DNA of 64,000 bases from Streptomonospora litoralis (GTDB lineage: Bacteria; Actinomycetota; Actinomycetes; Streptosporangiales; Streptosporangiaceae). Both the position numbers and the translations under genes were made by a program. The notes beneath the pieces are model-generated. The model was given only the letters and a program-made list of their open reading frames with translations. It was not told the origin of the DNA and did no database searches. Positions within the stretch are counted from its first letter, which is position 1, and every line of letters begins with the position of its first letter. Below, one piece after another: positions 973-63,562 of this stretch. The stretch covers positions 1,731,101 through 1,795,100 of the forward strand of contig NZ_CP036455.1 of NCBI RefSeq assembly GCF_004323735.1, written 5' to 3'.

Positions 973-1776
973 TAGCGATCGTCACCTCCGCACTCCCGCG
1001 TGTCGGATGAGCGAGCCGGACGGGCGGTGTCCGCAATCGTTCGGCACGCGGCGCTGGCGTCGGTGGGGGCGGTGGGGTTGGTGGGGGCCGCCTCGGTTTG
1101 CTGGGCGGCCTTGTTGGCTGCCTGGATGCGGGTGACCTCGGAAAACCAGCGGCGACGGTAGCGGATGGCCCAGCCCGCACCCATCGGTTCGGGTGCTCGC
1201 CGGTTGGGCATCCGACGGGGGCGGCGAGGACGCCGGCCGGGGCCGGGCCTGGGATGGTCGGGGCGGTGGCAGCCGGGTGGGGGCACGAGATGCACGTACG
1301 TGCGGCGGTATCGGCCTCGGTGTCGCCCCGAGGCGACGCCCTCACCCTGTCATTCCGCGACACGAAACAACACGGGGCGTTTCGTCCACCAATGCCCGAA
1401 TTTCCGGTAGGCCCGCCCCCGCGCCGCGACGGCGACGGCCCACGAGGCGCGCCGAATGGCGCGAAAACAGCCCCGACATCAACTTTTCGTGCGCCTCGTG
1501 GCCACTGCGCCCGCCGAGGCCACCCGCAAAACGGGCATAGACCCCCAAAAGCCCACCCCATCGGGCGGTGGAGCTCCCGGCGGCGACGCCGGGGCGCCAC
1601 GAGCGACGCGTCGTCGCCCCCGGGCCCCGATCCGGCGCACTCCCGGGCCACGCGGGCGCCCGCGACCGCGCCCCGCCGCGCTGCCTCCGCCCTGTGCGGT
1701 CCCGGCAGGGGACACGGCGACACCCAGCCGGCGCACCGGCGCCGGTAGGTCCCCTATGCCGGTCCATCCGGCGATG

Positions 1777-1829
1777 ATCGCGAACTTATGGCCGCGGAAT
1801 ACGCTTACCTGCGACCATAAGTTCGCGAT
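1777..1829. repeat. Hairpin A of repeat element copy 1
   Basis: Two 19-nt arms (1777-1795 and 1811-1829) pair with one mismatch around a 15-nt spacer; the outer part is ATCGCGAACTTATGG with its complement on the other side. The same structure is at 62591-62643, where the outer arms read ATCGTGAACTT and AAGTTCACGAT, so both strands of the stem changed together. Confidence 0.85.
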
Positions 1830-1847
1830 AGACGGGCCAAGCCGCGC

Positions 1848-1903
1848 CGAGTCTGTCTGCAGGGTTGGATTCGACGCCGAATCCAACCCTGCAGACAGAC
1901 TCG
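1848..1903. repeat. Hairpin B of repeat element copy 1, 26-bp perfect arms
   Basis: Arms 1848-1873 and 1878-1903 are perfectly complementary around the 4-nt loop ACGC. The stem contains TCTGTCTGCAGGG and GGATTCG. The counterpart in copy 2 (62527-62582) keeps the fold with about three mismatched pairs. There is no following T-run, and neither neighbouring gene ends into it closely, so a simple terminator role is unlikely. Confidence 0.9.
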
Positions 1904-2117
1904 ATGGGACCGGTGCTACCTATTGCAGGGTTTCGATCAGACAGCGGCCCGCGGCAGCCGAACGCCGCCCTCCGCCGGGTGCGCCACCGGCGAGCACCCG
2001 ATCCGATGCCCGCGGGCCCAGCCCTGCGCCGCCCTCGGCGCCGCGTTCCGTGCAGGCCACCCGCCACCCGGCAGACCGGCAAGGCCGCCCAGCGGACCCG
2101 ACCCGCCGCCTCGTCGG

Positions 2118-2215
2118 CCGCCGTCACCGGCGGGCACCCGGCCCGTTGGGCGCGGGCGCCACCCCGCGGTCTCTTCGCCCCCCTCGGGCGCGTCACCGGC
2201 GAGCATCTTGCACGG
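2118..2215 (+). repeat. Partial extra copies of the element's terminal module
   Basis: Two short pieces resembling the inner part of the terminal module follow copy 1: one with GTCACCGGCGGGCACCC and the stretch after it, and one with GCGTCACCGGCGAGCA. The outer half of the module is missing from both. They suggest repeated insertion or recombination at one site. Confidence 0.5.
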
Positions 2216-4166: not shown

Positions 4167-6671
4167 AGCTGCAGCATGCCATGCCGTGCAGACCGTTCTG
4201 CGCGGTAGCCGCCGAGCGGGACGCGGTGGGGACGGCCGTCTGCGGCGGCGCGGGGTCCGGCGGGGACCGGGGTCGCGGCAGACGACGGCGGGGTTCGCGG
4301 GGCCGGGGACGACGGCGATGTCACCGTGCAGGTCCGTACGGTAGTTCGCTGCGGAGACCGACTGCAGCAGGGACCAGGTGGCCGGTTCCGGATGGCCGTA
4401 GGCGTTGTCCGCGCCGACCGAGGTCAGTGTGACGGAGGGGCGGGTGGCGGCGATGAATGCGGGTTCCTGGGAGCCGGCGCCGTGGTGGGGGACCTTGAGG
4501 ACGTCGACTCCGCGGACGGCGTGCGTGCTGCGCAGCAGTGCACGTTGCGCGGGCTCCTCGATGTCGCCCGTCAGCAGTACCCGCATCGGCGAGGCGCCGT
4601 CCTGCGCGGTGGGCGACCGACGGGCCAGCAGCACGACACTGCCGTCGTTGCCGCCGGGGGAGTCGCGGCGGGGCCAGAGCACGTCGAGCGTCCACGGGGC
4701 GAGATTCCAGCGCTGGCCCGACACCGCGGTGCGCACAGGGACGTCCGCGCTGCGCAGCAGGCGCGCGGTCGGGGGATGGTCGAAGCGGGGCGGCAGCAGG
4801 ACAGCCCCCACGGTCCGCCCCGACAGCGCCCCCGCGGTGCCGCCCGCGTGGTCGATGTCGCCGTGCGTGATCACCAGCAGGGCGATCGCGTCGATGCGCA
4901 GTTCCGTCAGGCACCGGGACACCGCCACGGGATCGGGGCCGGTGTCGACCACGATCGCCCGCTGCGCACCGGCGCGCAGCACCAACGCGTCGCCTTGGCC
5001 TACGCGGCACGCCACCATCGCCCACCCCGCCGGCGGCCAGGCCGGTGCGACCCAGTGCACGGTGAGTGCAGTCAGGGCCGCCGCCAGCCCGACCGCGCAG
5101 ACCACCCGCCGGACGCGGCCGCGCAGGACCAGCAGCACCACCAGGACGGCGGCGACGGCCGCGGCACCGGCTAACGTGTCGGGCCAGGGCAGCGCACGCC
5201 CGGGCAGCCGCGACGCGGTACCGGCCACCGCGCCGATCCAGAGCACGGCCGCACCCGGTATCCACGCCGCGGCGGCCGCCAGCGGCGGCCACACCTGGGC
5301 GATTCCCGCGACCGCGAACCCGCCGATCGTCGCCACCGGCACGGCCGGAGCCGCAAGCACGTTGGCGGGCACGGCCACCCAGTTGACCTCCGCGGACAGG
5401 ACGACCAGCAGCGGCAGGCACGCCACGTGCGCGGCGAGGGCTACGGCCACCGCCTCGGCGATCCAGCGGGGCACGTACGCCGGTCGGCATTCGCGCCAGC
5501 GCGGCGTCAGGACCATGATCCCGCCGGTGGCCAGCGCCGACAGGGCGAACCCGAACGAGCGCGCGAGTCCGGGGGCGAACAGCAGCAGCCCCAGGACCGA
5601 TGCCGCCAGCGCCGTCAGACCGACGCGCCGGCGCCCCAGCGCCAGGGCCGCCAGCGCGATGGAGGCCATGAAAGCGGCGCGCAGCACACTCGGTTCCGCG
5701 CGTGCCAGCAGCACGAACACCCCGATGGTGACCGCGCCCGCCACCGCCGCCGTCCAGCCCGGCCGCCCCAGGCCGCGGCACACCGCCAGCGCCACGCCCG
5801 TCATGATGGCGAGGTTCGACCCGCTGACCGCCAGCAGGTGGGTCAGCCCGCTGTCCTCGAAGGCGGCGACGGTCGGCGGACGCAGCCCGGAGGTGTCTCC
5901 CACGACGAGCGCCGGCAGCAGTGCGGCGGCGGGCTCGGGCAGGCCCGCCGAAGCTTCGCGCAGCCGATCCCGTGCGCCGCCGGCCCATTCCTGCCACGGC
6001 GACGGCGGGCGGACGCTCGTAGGCGGTCCGCGTACCACCAGCAGGCCGCCGACAAGCCCGCCATCGGCCGGGAACAGTGTGCCCGAAGCGTGCACGCGCT
6101 GGCTGGGCAGCAGTCGCCGCCAGCTTTCGCCCGAGGCCAGCACCACGACCGGTACCCGGGTGCGTACGCGCCCGCCGTTGCCGGAGGCACCGCTGTCCGC
6201 GCTGAGGCCGCGGGCGCGCACGGCTTCGGCGCGCGCCTCGATGACGAGCCGGGCCCGGCCGGGCGCGGGCGGACCGCTGCGGTGACGGGGGTCCGCGGTG
6301 ACCACGAGTTCGACTTCGGCGTACTCCCGCTCGCGGGCCAGTTCGGGCACGGGGCTGCCGGCGACGGCGGCCAGCCGCCCGCCGGTCGCCAGCGCACCCG
6401 CTGCCATGCAGACCAGCACGGCGACGACCACCGCCGCCACACCGCCGCTCGACCAGCGCCGCGTGAGCGTCCACACAGCCCCGGCGCCCAGCGCCAGTAC
6501 GCCCGCTGCGGCGAACGCGACCCCCGGCCCCGCGCCCAGCAGCACCGCCGTGCAGCCCCAGGTTCCCACTGCGGCGGGGACCAGCCGCAGATCCGGTACG
6601 GCGGAGTAGTCGGGGGCGTCGGTTCCCAGGTAGACCATGGACACCTGCTCGGGGAGCGGACAGGGGCGCAT
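4167..6671 (-). CDS. comEC: ComEC/Rec2 DNA-uptake channel, no stop codon before holA
   Basis: This encodes the membrane channel that carries single-stranded DNA across the cytoplasmic membrane in natural transformation. The N-terminal region has two or three membrane segments and an OB-like domain; the Competence domain carries LTHLLAVSGSNLAIMTG and several transmembrane helices; the C-terminal part is a metallo-beta-lactamase-like domain with THGDIDHAGG, GNDGSVVLL, LLTGDIE and KVPHHGAG. The natural end is expected soon after GDIAVV, near 4320, but the frame stays open through an Arg/Pro-rich stretch into holA (1157 residues in total if continuous). An internal start at 6638 (MVYLGTD) is also possible. 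A rare TTA leucine codon lies at 5174-5172. Confidence 0.85.
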
Positions 6672-6835
6672 TTGCGGCGCGGGGGTGCGGGGGTGCTCGC
6701 CGCGGCGGTACCTCCGTGAGCGCGAGCGCCCCGGCGGCCGGCGCGGGCGGCGTCGCCCACAGAGCCCGCCGAGAGCGAAGACGCCGCGACGCCGTGCCGA
6801 GGCGCAGTGGCGGACGACACGATCCGTCGCCGTTC

Positions 6836-8710
6836 CTACGCCCTCCCGGGCGTCCCGGCCACATGGACGAGTTCGGCGATGTCGGCGTACCGCTGCTCAC
6901 CGATTCCGCTGACGTCGCGCAACTGCTCGACGGCGGAGAAACCGCCGTTCTCGGTGCGGTGGGCGGCGATGCGTTCGGCCAGCACGGGGCCCACGCCGGG
7001 CAGTTCCTGGAGTTGGCCGACGGTGGCGGTGTTCAGGTCGATGGGGGTGCCGGGCGCCCCGGCGGGGCCGGGGGCTCCGCCGGGAGCGGGGCCCGCTGCG
7101 GGCGGCGCCGGGGCGGGTGCCCCGACAAGGACCTGTTCGCCGTCGACGAGGGGACGTGCGAGGTTGAGGGTGCCCGGTTCGGCGTCGCGGGTCAGGCCAC
7201 CCGCCTCCTCGACGGCGTCGGCGACGCGCGAGCCGGCGGGGAGCGTGACGAGCCCGGGACTCCGGACGTCCCCGCCGACGTGCACGGTGACATCGGGAGC
7301 CGGGCTGGCGGCCGCCGTACGTGGGGACGGTGCGGGATCGGCACCCGCGGCCGCAGGCACGGGTGAAGCCTGCGCCTGCAGGGTCGGCGGGGGCTCGGGT
7401 TCGGGACGGGCCTGGAGCAGGAACCAGCCGGTGGCGAGGGCTGCCAACACGCACACCCCGATGAGCGCCCGCAAGCCGGCGCGGCCCAGCCGCGGCTGGT
7501 CGGCGAGTCCGGGAAGCAGGCGCTCCACGAGCGCCGACCACCGCCGCCCGCGCAGCAGTTCGGGGCCGACCTCTTCGTACCCTCGCGGAGGCGTCGGGGG
7601 AGGGGGACGGTGTCCACCCGACGGGTCGGCTGAGGGCTGCGGCCGCTCGCTCGGCGGATGCGGGCGGTCAGTGGAGCCGTCGTCCGTCGGGGGCGGCGAG
7701 GGACGACGCTCGGCGCGGGGATGCGGCTCGGAGGCGGGCGGGGCCGGGCGGTGCGGCGGTCGGGCCTCCGCGCAACGGGGGTGGCCGGTAGGCGGCTGCG
7801 CATCGGCGGTTGGACCACGGCTCGGTCGAGGGTGGGATGCGGTGGTCGCCGGAGCTGTCGCCGTCGGGGCCGCAGGCGGCTGCCCTTCGCGGCGGCTGCG
7901 GGCACCGCCTGCGGTGTCCTGGCTGATGCGTGCGTGCCCTCCGTGGTGCCGAGACGCCCGGAGCGGTCGGTCGCGCCGATCGGTGCCGCCGCTCTGCGGG
8001 GCCTCGCTCGTCGGGGCCGCGGCGCGCCTGTGGCGACCGGGGCGGGATTCCCCGCAGGTGCGGGATGTCGAAGGGTGCCCGGGGGAGGAGGCGTCGTCGG
8101 GCGCCGACGGGCCGCTGGGGCCCGAAGGGGCGGCGCCTGGCGCAGTCGTCGCGGTCGGCCGGGACACGTCCGCGACGTCGCGGGGCTGTCGGCGCGACCT
8201 CTGGGGCCCTTGTGGACCGCTGCCTTCCGCTCCCGGCCCGGCGGGAGGCGGCAGGGGCAAGGCCGCCTCCCGGGGCAAAGGCATTGCTTCCTTCGGCGGC
8301 GCCGCCCGGACGGCGATTCCTGGTCCGGGCGGGCTGTGCCGGGACGGAATCGGCGCTGACGGGCTCGTTCGGCGGTAGAGAGCGTAGGGCGGGGGAGGTA
8401 CCGACTCGGCAGCTTCGGCGGCCTCGGATTCCGAAGAGGCCCCCTCACCGGTGGGACCGCGGTGCGGATCCGGCGTCTGCGGCGCGTCTGTGTGCGGGCC
8501 GCCGGGTGTGGATGGTGCCGCCTCTGCTGGAGAGGGTGATGGCGGGAAACGTGTTCGGTCGGTGCCGGCCGGATCGCGGTCGGGATCGGGGGCGGTCTCC
8601 GGCTCCGGGCCGGTTGAGGACCGGTCGGAGAGGGCTTGGAGCCGCCGCAAGGCGGTGATCGAGTCGGAGGGCGGAGCGGCGGGCGGACGGCGGGAACGCG
8701 CAGGCGACAT
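6836..8710 (-). CDS. comEA: ComEA-like DNA-binding competence protein with a long disordered N-terminus
   Basis: The C-terminal ~200 residues are a standard ComEA: one membrane helix (ALIGVCVLAALATGWFLL), an SLBB domain (VTVHVGGDVRSPGLV...), a Pro/Ala/Gly linker, and two helix-hairpin-helix motifs (IDLNTATVGQLQELPGVGP and FSAVEQLRDVSGIGE). ComEA binds double-stranded DNA outside the cell and hands it to ComEC, whose gene follows 164 bp downstream. Unusually, about 420 residues rich in Pro, Ser, Thr and Arg precede the membrane helix and would be cytoplasmic. The ATG at 8710 (MSPARSRR) is my choice; a much later start would give a protein of normal family size, so the length is uncertain. Confidence 0.8.
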   Translation of the reverse strand: MSPARSRRPPAAPPSDSITALRRLQALSDRSSTGPEPETAPDPDRDPAGTDRTRFPPSPSPAEAAPSTPGGPHTDAPQTPDPHRGPTGEGASSESEAAEAAESVPPPPYALYRRTSPSAPIPSRHSPPGPGIAVRAAPPKEAMPLPREAALPLPPPAGPGAEGSGPQGPQRSRRQPRDVADVSRPTATTAPGAAPSGPSGPSAPDDASSPGHPSTSRTCGESRPGRHRRAAAPTSEAPQSGGTDRRDRPLRASRHHGGHARISQDTAGGARSRREGQPPAAPTATAPATTASHPRPSRGPTADAQPPTGHPRCAEARPPHRPAPPASEPHPRAERRPSPPPTDDGSTDRPHPPSERPQPSADPSGGHRPPPPTPPRGYEEVGPELLRGRRWSALVERLLPGLADQPRLGRAGLRALIGVCVLAALATGWFLLQARPEPEPPPTLQAQASPVPAAAGADPAPSPRTAAASPAPDVTVHVGGDVRSPGLVTLPAGSRVADAVEEAGGLTRDAEPGTLNLARPLVDGEQVLVGAPAPAPPAAGPAPGGAPGPAGAPGTPIDLNTATVGQLQELPGVGPVLAERIAAHRTENGGFSAVEQLRDVSGIGEQRYADIAELVHVAGTPGRA

Positions 8711-33710: not shown

Positions 33711-33730
33711 AGGCTCGGCGCCCCATCGGG

Positions 33731-33853
33731 CGCGCCACCGGCGGGCACCCTGTCCGGTGGGCGCGGGTCCGGCCATCCGCCGGCGTCGCCGCTTCTCCTG
33801 CAGGCCCCCGTCGCCCGGCAGGCCACAAGGCCGCCCAGCGGGCCCGAGCCGCC
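33731..33853 (+). repeat. Solo terminal module of the repeat element
   Basis: One copy of the ~125-bp module (GCCACCGGCGGGCACCC...AGGCCACAAGGCCGCCCAGC) without the rest of the element. It stands in the 745-bp gap between the IclR regulator and hyi, about 120 bp upstream of the operon's operator. Similarity to 1981-2109 is clear in both halves. Confidence 0.6.
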
Positions 33854-62217: not shown

Positions 62218-62526
62218 CGGGGAGCGCGGCGGTCGGGGCCGGTGTCGGTTGCCATGGGCGACCGGGGCGCGCGGCGGATGGCGGGTCGGGTGTTGTGCGG
62301 CCTTGTTGGTCTGCCGGGGTGCGGGTGGCCTTCACGGGAAAGCGGAGGCGAGGGCGGTGGTGGGCTGGGCCTGCGGTTGTCGGGTGGGGTGCTTGCCGGT
62401 GGCGCGTGCGGCGGGGGCGGCGTTCGGGGGCCGCCGCAGGGTCGGTCGGCGCATCCAATGCGCGGTTTCCACCGGATTCCGGCCGCTGTCTGGACGGAAC
62501 CCTGCGTTGGTCGACAGCGGTGCCAT

Positions 62527-62582
62527 CGAGTCTGTCTGCAGGGACGGATTCGGCGCCGAATCCCACCCTGGAGACAGACTCG
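62527..62582. repeat. Hairpin B of repeat element copy 2
   Basis: The 56-bp dyad keeps CGAGTCTGTCT at the base and GGATTCGG/CCGAATCC at the tip, with about three mismatched pairs in the middle of the stem. It corresponds to the perfect dyad 1848-1903 of copy 1. Confidence 0.8.
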
Positions 62583-62590
62583 ACGCGTCT

Positions 62591-62643
62591 ATCGTGAACT
62601 TATGGTCGCAGGAAAGCGCATTCCGCGGCCATAAGTTCACGAT
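62591..62643. repeat. Hairpin A of repeat element copy 2
   Basis: Arms 62591-62609 and 62625-62643 pair with one mismatch around a 15-nt spacer. Outer pairs are ATCGTGAACTT and AAGTTCACGAT, a compensatory change relative to the ATCGCGAACTT/AAGTTCGCGAT of copy 1. Confidence 0.85.
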
Positions 62644-63215
62644 CATCGCCGGATGGACCGGCATACCGGACACACCGGCAGCGGTGGGCCGGCTGAGTGT
62701 CGCCGTGTTCCGGTCGGGCCCGCACCGGCCGGAGGCCGCGCCGCGGGGCGCGGTCGCGGGCACCCGCGCGGCCCGGGGGTGCGCCGGATCGGGGGCCCGG
62801 GGGGCGACGACACGTCGCTCGTGGCGCCCGGGCGCGGCCGAGGGGAGCTCCACCGCCCGATGGGGTGGGCTTTTGCGGGCCGATGCCCGTTTTACGGGCG
62901 ACCCCGGCGGACGCCGCGGCCACGAGGCGCACGAAAAGTCGACGCCGGGGGCGGTTTTCGCGCCATCCGGCGCACCTCGTGCGCCACCGCCGCCGCAGCA
63001 CGGGCGCGGGCCCACCGGAAACTCGGGCATTGGCGGGCAAAACACCCCGTGCTGTTCCGTATCACGGAATTGCGGTGCGAGGGCGACACCTCGGGACGAC
63101 ACCGAGGCCGATGCCGCCGCACCTACGTGCAACTCGTGACCCCGACCCGGCCGCAGGACCGCCGCCGACCACCGCAGGCCGGCCCCGCCGGCCCCGCCGG
63201 CGTCGTCGTCGCCCC

Positions 63216-63275
63216 CGTCGGGCGCGCCACCGACGAGCACCGGAACCGACGTCCGCGGCCCCGGCCCTGTTGCTG
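63216..63275 (+). repeat. Partial terminal module within copy 2
   Basis: CCCCGTCGGGCGCGCCACC and GACGAGCACC match the inner part of the module, followed by about 25 bp of lower similarity, then the full module at 63298 begins. The outer half is missing. Confidence 0.5.
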
Positions 63276-63437
63276 CCGTCGCCGCCCCCGCCGACCACCG
63301 CCACCGGCGAGCACCCGAACCGTTGGGCACGGGCCCCGCCCACCGCCGCCCTCGGCGCCGCTTTTCAGTGAAGGCCACCCGCACCCGGCAGACCAACAAG
63401 GCCGCACAGCAGACCCGAGCCGCCGATCCGTCAGGCA

Positions 63438-63562
63438 CGCCACCGGCGAGCACCCGAACCGGTGACCGCAAGCCCAGCCATCCGCCACCGTCGCCGCGGC
63501 TTTCCCGCGAGGTGCCTGTTTCCCGGTAGACCGGCAAGGCCGTCCAGCGGAGCCGAGCCGCC
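63438..63562 (+). repeat. Extra terminal module after copy 2
   Basis: A full-length module (GCCACCGGCGAGCACCCG through GGCAAGGCCGTCCAGCGG) directly follows the one ending copy 2, in the same orientation, making a tandem pair. Confidence 0.65.

Follow-up and report, generated by a model that had tools for sequence, protein, structure and literature searches.

The two copies of a composite repeat present in a stretch of 64,000 nucleotides of the Streptomonospora litoralis chromosome (the window) belong to a family of at least 112 elements, which is very probably a non-autonomous, MITE-like element of the IS5 type with a foldback anatomy that was moved in trans by an IS5-family transposase. A MITE or another non-autonomous element had already been considered in a first-pass annotation of the window, which named the number of copies per genome, empty sites, and short target duplications at the ends as checks on this view. 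At the level of the family, the view is supported by 65 cores, by terminal inverted repeats that are bounded by TA on both sides in 11 of 16 elements with two preserved ends, by IS5-family relatives with the same ends, and by an element-free orthologous site in sister species.

In the window, copy A spans 1087-2177 and copy B, which is reversed, spans 62291-63562. Both copies have the same order of parts, in which an inverted module is followed by the core, hairpin I, hairpin II, and a module in plus orientation (Table 1). The inverted end modules, the two big hairpins, and the same plan in reversed order in copy B, all of which the first-pass annotation had described, were recovered by repeat finding, blastn, and profiles. 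Its statement that a transposase gene is lacking also holds, and no conserved reading frame was seen either. Copy A, annotated as 1086-2109, has a further partial module at 2111-2177, and copy B is longer than the annotated 62281-63426 because it reaches 63562 with one partial and two full right-hand modules. The description of the middle as diverged has to be abandoned: between A and B, identity reaches 85% in the core (399 of 468 aligned positions) and 90% in the hairpins, compared with 81% in the modules. The solo module between the two copies is probably a remnant of another family member. In most copies, hairpin I (window 1777-1829 and others) has a C-A mismatch (G-T on the other strand) at one arm position, the stem being otherwise nearly perfect.

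Table 1. Parts of the two family members and a solo module in the window.
Feature	Position in window	Strand	Evidence
Copy A, left module, outward-pointing	1087..1219	-	nhmmer module profile, 91 bits
Copy A, non-coding core	1276..1744	+	nhmmer core profile, 442 bits
Copy A, hairpin I, GAACTTATGG type, 3' end of core	1777..1829	+	repeat finding and hp1 profile, 87 bits
Copy A, hairpin II, 26-bp perfect arms	1848..1903	+	repeat finding and hp2 profile
Copy A, right module	1971..2105	+	nhmmer module profile, 93 bits
Copy A, second right module, partial	2111..2177	+	nhmmer module profile, 21 bits
Solo module	33723..33852	+	nhmmer, 66 bits; blastn match to A and B
Copy B, left module	62291..62414	-	nhmmer, 72 bits
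Copy B, hairpin II	62526..62583	-	repeat finding and hp2 profile
Copy B, hairpin I	62591..62643	-	repeat finding and hp1 profile
Copy B, non-coding core	62676..63146	-	nhmmer, 434 bits
Copy B, partial right module	63214..63285	+	nhmmer, 29 bits
Copy B, right module	63299..63423	+	nhmmer, 101 bits
Copy B, outer right module	63427..63562	+	nhmmer, 88 bits

A DNA search of the host genome (G000) yielded 348 matches, at least 40 of them long. The core motif occurs at 66 places (31 forward, 35 reverse; reversed control, 0), which greatly exceeds chance, and all of them are located on contig C1. A core is recognized by profile at 65 of these loci, the exception (L132) being the sole place with three mismatches. 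Annotation with profiles of the 66 core-motif loci and of 40 further loci picked from pattern listings resulted in at least 112 elements with 366 modules. The elements amount to 98,322 bp; number and length are lower bounds, with 10 more loci (L250-L259), nine of which have a family part beside a terminus, standing outside the count.

The shared plan consists of tandem modules of about 138 bp that face away from a centre formed by the core and/or hairpins. Modules are found on both sides in 78 of the 112 elements, the outward order is broken in none, and all modules keep to their proper side of a centre; 16 one-sided remnants without a centre are outside the scope of this order check. Members range from the complete series of module, core, hairpin, and module through forms with partial cores to a hairpin and a module alone. 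Many lack part or all of the core, and degenerate and deleted members are common. The hairpin slot can be filled by hairpin I, by hairpins I and II, or by a third, distinct hairpin. Locus L128 (4683-8953) holds two members with different hairpin types, whose cores are only about 2.8 kb apart. In L088, a stretch of 1.3 kb (5888-7199) lies between an element and three more right-hand modules with a terminus; this stretch may have been inserted into a longer element.

Outside the last module, the sequence turns unique, and many members end in TTCTTRAACACGGC-N-TA. Members with preserved ends carry a terminal inverted repeat of about 14 bp, GCCGTGTTYAAGAA, which is mostly flanked by TA, usually within CTAG. 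This terminus with a G after the TA occurs at 62 places genome-wide at up to two mismatches (control, 0). At up to three mismatches, it was found in 54 of 224 element-end segments, compared with 2 of 224 for the reversed control. As 170 of the 224 segments have no recognizable terminus and the repeat is absent at up to three mismatches from both window copies, the case for terminal repeats and target duplication rests on the better-preserved members. Both ends are kept in 16 elements of 377-1841 bp, 11 of which exceed 1 kb. TA is present on both sides of 11 of these 16 two-ended elements, the background frequency of TA being 0.0097, and it is missing on at least one side in five. The TA is preceded by C in 10 and followed by G in eight of the 11, which indicates insertion at CTAG with duplication of TA. 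The ends are of two types, type I being joined directly to the module and type II having some 40-50 bp extra. On the 5' side of the core, or of hairpin I if the core is gone, type I was found 23 times and type II three times; on the 3' side, type II was found 12 times and type I six times.

The same terminus was searched at up to one mismatch in 297 genomes of the family, which were selected from a larger group. It is present in 30 of them including the host, mostly with a single match; such single matches are possibly due to chance because the reversed control matched in seven of the family genomes. Repeated matches were found in the host (39), G004 (16), G005 (10), G023 (5), G304 (4), G155 (2), and G254 (2). 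Five loci, namely L205 (G005), L183 (G023), L198 (G254), L197 (G307), and L202 (G155), have two termini at a distance of 1029-1044 bp with a CTAG at either end; the related genomes bearing these insertion sequences include one of the host's genus. The transposases of L205, L183, and L198 have 302, 302, and 325 amino acids and match the IS5-family model NF033580 of NCBIfam with 245-257 bits (cut-off, 110) as well as PF13340/PF01609 of Pfam. Thus, autonomous relatives with the same ends as the host elements exist as IS5-family elements in G005, G023, and G254. Judged by eye, the similarity is limited to about the first 18-20 terminal bases, and neither modules nor hairpin parts were found in the three IS loci. 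A tblastn search of the host genome with the G023 transposase, run without a positive control, gave no match. The same was the case for all three transposases against 116 host loci (1.04 Mb), in a search whose positive controls worked: the transposases matched one another and the copies in L197 and L202 at 67-93% identity, partial alignments included. As an enzyme of this kind was seen in related species only, the IS5-type transposase is a putative mover of the host family.

Evidence of insertion also comes from an individual site. For one element (L078), which is situated between two convergent genes, the orthologous site was compared in five sister species (G001-G005) and is element-free in all of them, most clearly in G005 and G001. 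Between the flank matches, the host has 1,367 bp, G005 has 57 bp, and G001 has 225 bp. In G001, a CTAG containing the TAG stop of the gene lies within three bases of the insertion point, and in G005 there is a TGA stop and no CTAG. The host site exceeds by three bases the length expected of a simple insertion, and it has no TA on the right. In G002, G003, and G004, the left flank match breaks off at this same point, and 250, 340, and 232 bp separate it from the following one; these gaps are too short for the element, the next gene of the host is absent in between, and family parts were not found in the stretch of G004 (L232).

Gene stop codons and convergent gene pairs are favoured by the elements, and divergent neighbours are avoided. 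Seven of 14 two-ended elements abut the stop of a called gene exactly, compared with 32 of 208 CTAG sites elsewhere (Fisher p=0.004); one of the seven (L078) adjoins TGA and not a TA-derived stop. Convergent gene neighbours are found for 41 of 112 elements versus 52 of 364 gene pairs with gaps over 50 bp that served as background (p=1e-6), and divergent neighbours for 10 of 112 versus 88 of 364 (p=3e-4), the genes having been called with a simple Markov caller and not with a standard gene finder. In 111 of the 112 elements, any overlap with a called gene is limited to 60 bp at most. This intergenic position, the bias toward convergent 3' ends, and the strong hairpins would also suit chromosome-organising or protein-binding sites (macrodomain, terminator, or nucleoid) that are kept intergenic by selection. 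Such a role appears very improbable for the family, as the position bias fits insertion at CTAG stops, the 31 forward and 35 reverse cores show no overall strand bias, and degenerate and deleted members are frequent. In addition, the host core is represented in the five sister species by short pieces only (31-121 bp, E not below 3e-6), and it is absent, by two exact patterns, from 84,980 species genomes, the host's own genome being left out.

The host core looks non-coding. No reading frame stays open throughout 40 host cores, which have a median of one or two stops in each of the six frames, and the variation over these copies has no period of three (0.116, 0.104, 0.111); on these grounds, a coding core was rejected. 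Some individual copies are open end to end, the longest frames having 197-203 codons; long chance open frames are frequent in GC-rich DNA. A structural RNA locus had been offered as an alternative by the first-pass annotation, and in this case the family would be one of structured non-coding RNAs with incidental flanking arrays. The better conservation of the core relative to the modules between A and B would agree with this, as would the fold of the core with -89.1 (plus) and -103.2 (minus) versus a shuffle mean of -73.3 (sd 8.6), which is derived from 14 column shuffles of the plus alignment only. Furthermore, the arms of hairpin I co-vary at one position (CG 45, TA 41, and mixed 30 of 118 rows, which pool both strands and count each hairpin twice); this fits arms pairing in DNA or RNA, or arm-to-arm conversion. 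However, in an alignment of 36 host copies out of 40 (L073, L084, L098, and L100 left out), the compensatory pairs, five on the plus and seven on the minus strand, are in no clear excess over the shuffle mean of 4.9, and the covariation term of RNAalifold amounts to just -2.11 in -100.69. Neither the window nor four loci gave an Rfam match at gathering score, many members lack the core partly or completely, and sister species G004 has a different one. The RNA alternative is thus not supported and very unlikely.

Exchange between copies has contributed to the present state of the family. Among separate pairs, L099 and L100 are the closest, with 99.4% identity over 1,089 bp. Their shared tract stops within modules at either side and does not reach the termini, and the other pairs listed break off within modules or close to the end of the core, which indicates that gene conversion or recombination between copies contributes. 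The L099/L100 tract looks like gene conversion and not like fresh transposition. An origin of the entire family by segmental duplication and gene conversion alone, without transposition, would account for these tract ends; it is nevertheless highly improbable in view of the terminal repeats, the TA flanks, the differing flanks at the copies listed, and the element-free orthologous site. The first-pass annotation had named a restriction to two copies with identical flanks as an argument for an ancestral segmental duplication, and this does not apply to a family with 65 cores and at least 112 elements. Its suggestion of mobility is supported for past insertion by the termini, the TA flanks, and the L078 site; present-day movement is not supported by the shared tract of the closest copies, which stops within modules.

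An IS630-family (Tc1/mariner-like) MITE, the first supposition in view of the TA duplication in CTAG and of an IS630-family insertion sequence with three host copies (NF033545), can be practically discounted because the ends of these copies, GTGTTCTGCGCCTGAAATCC, are unlike the element termini, which are shared by IS5-type elements of relatives. This IS630-family element has 1147 bp and its three copies are near-identical (L177, G000:C1 about 1968.6-1969.8 kb; L178; L179); the L177 copy sits at the right terminus of a family element (module 1170-1314, terminus 1355). A REP/BIME repeat moved by a Y1 (RAYT-like) transposase was also rejected: the host genome has three Y1 transposase matches, one of them below the family cut-off, and the loci of about 3.1-3.4 kb around them contain no family parts. 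The well-matching Y1 transposase (IS200/IS605-type) at L174 (G000:C1:2617763-2618125) has an open frame, and its locus is devoid of any part of the repeat family.

A parallel family with related modules, the same inverted layout, and a different core is present in G004. Its arrays, examined in 16 of 18 fetched stretches (L233-L248), match one half, of about 72 bp, of the host module. They are located on both sides in 15 of the 16 stretches and always point outward; in the remaining one, L247, the array is cut by a contig end. L247 and L248 are identical over 848 bases at contig ends and possibly represent a single element. The best pairwise pieces of the G004 core are 77-100% identical, mostly 80-91%. 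This core looks non-coding as well, and a coding function was rejected since 12 copies have no open frame in common, their variation lacks a clear period of three (0.110, 0.119, 0.126), and none of three long frames matched Pfam. A profile of the G004 core did not match the host cores. Blastn yielded short pieces only, the best E among the matches listed being 3e-6, and some blocks look alike by eye in reversed order; together, these similarities point to a possible distant and rearranged relation of the two cores. At six G004 loci, a terminus-like motif is found inside the arrays at one core end. L249 (G004:C2 about 132.7-133.0 kb) is a two-ended MITE of 285 bp with termini of the same type, and its interior resembles, by eye, the part of the G004 core with the terminus-like motif. 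In the comparison of the L078 site, G001, G002, G003, and G005 gave 15-44 matches each, and the minority of them that was listed consists of flank genes. Phage and plasmid collections gave no match, and neither did viral contigs searched with the hairpin pattern.

Modules and layout are common to the host and G004, and the core as a whole is not. On this basis, a class of bacterial foldback elements can tentatively be considered, in which the frame of outward arrays and IS5-type termini is inherited within the genus and the non-coding core is replaced between species; at present, this appears possible but doubtful. If it were true, the frame would serve as a platform on which internal DNA is captured, exchanged, or rearranged again and again, and the inverted arrays would persist because transposition or conversion from copy to copy is helped by their folding or pairing.

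According to the reading as a MITE-like IS5-type element, an IS5-family transposase would have acted in trans by recognizing the terminus (N)GCCGTGTTYAAGAA, and the elements would have been inserted at CTAG with duplication of the TA target, often exactly at the stop codon of a gene. Since the stop stays in place upon insertion into TAG, the CTAG target suggests how elements land harmlessly in stop codons. Inside the termini, opposed tandem arrays of modules of about 138 bp form a foldback round the non-coding core with its interchangeable hairpins. The arrays presumably arose by unequal recombination, and their later growth and shrinkage were probably due to unequal recombination between modules or to slippage; small members would have arisen by internal deletions. 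For want of the enzyme, the family would now be immobile or nearly so in the host, where it makes up some 0.1 Mb of the intergenic DNA of a single chromosome. Foldback elements with arrays of subrepeats have been described in eukaryotes. With a bacterial family, the question of how such arrays originate can be tested in a small genome, as about 100 copies of differing age, a matching insertion sequence in relatives, and a sister species with another core are available.

Among known systems, the IS5-family insertion sequences of the relatives (NF033580, transpos_IS5_3; L205, L183, L198) are like the host elements in their terminal repeat near CTAGGCC[GC]TGTTTAAGAA and their CTAG site. They differ in having about 1.04 kb and a transposase of 302 amino acids, and neither modules nor hairpin parts were recognized in the three loci, whereas the host family has no gene. 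The RUP and BOX elements of Streptococcus pneumoniae are dispersed intergenic repeats, RUP with a TA duplication and BOX with a modular structure and a variable number of its middle unit. Both are much smaller than the host family, are not known to have inverted arrays flanking a core, and possess different termini. Neither a bacterial foldback element with inverted subrepeat arrays nor a description of the host family was found in the literature searched, in which subscription journals were thinly covered.

BrickBuilt of Porphyromonas gingivalis is a non-autonomous MITE with IS5-like terminal repeats and internal tandem repeats, and thus resembles the host family as a non-autonomous bacterial element with such ends and repeats (PMC4596501). 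In BrickBuilt, 23-nt units form a single direct array that is placed between a leader and a tail, in contrast to the two opposed arrays of units of about 138 bp round a core of about 0.5 kb with hairpins in the host family. For MITEs, size ranges of 50-500 bp (PMC10969869) and 50-1000 bp (PMC4596501) are given. The host family has terminal inverted repeats, TA duplication, no functional transposase, and an autonomous relative with the same ends, as expected for a MITE; its two-ended elements exceed these ranges in many cases (377-1841 bp, 11 of 16 above 1 kb), and for this reason it is termed MITE-like and not plainly a MITE. The foldback element Tetris of Drosophila virilis is apparently non-autonomous and modular with rearranged forms; its terminal inverted repeats contain internal tandem repeats of about 220 bp, and portions of its ends are shared with a MITE (PMC4079207). 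Tetris is eukaryotic and the host family is bacterial with IS5-type ends and TA duplication; the likeness is one of layout, and no common descent is claimed. In this layout, the host family conforms to a foldback element, with long inverted ends of tandem subrepeats round a middle domain that are two-sided in 78 of 112 elements and nowhere violate the outward order.
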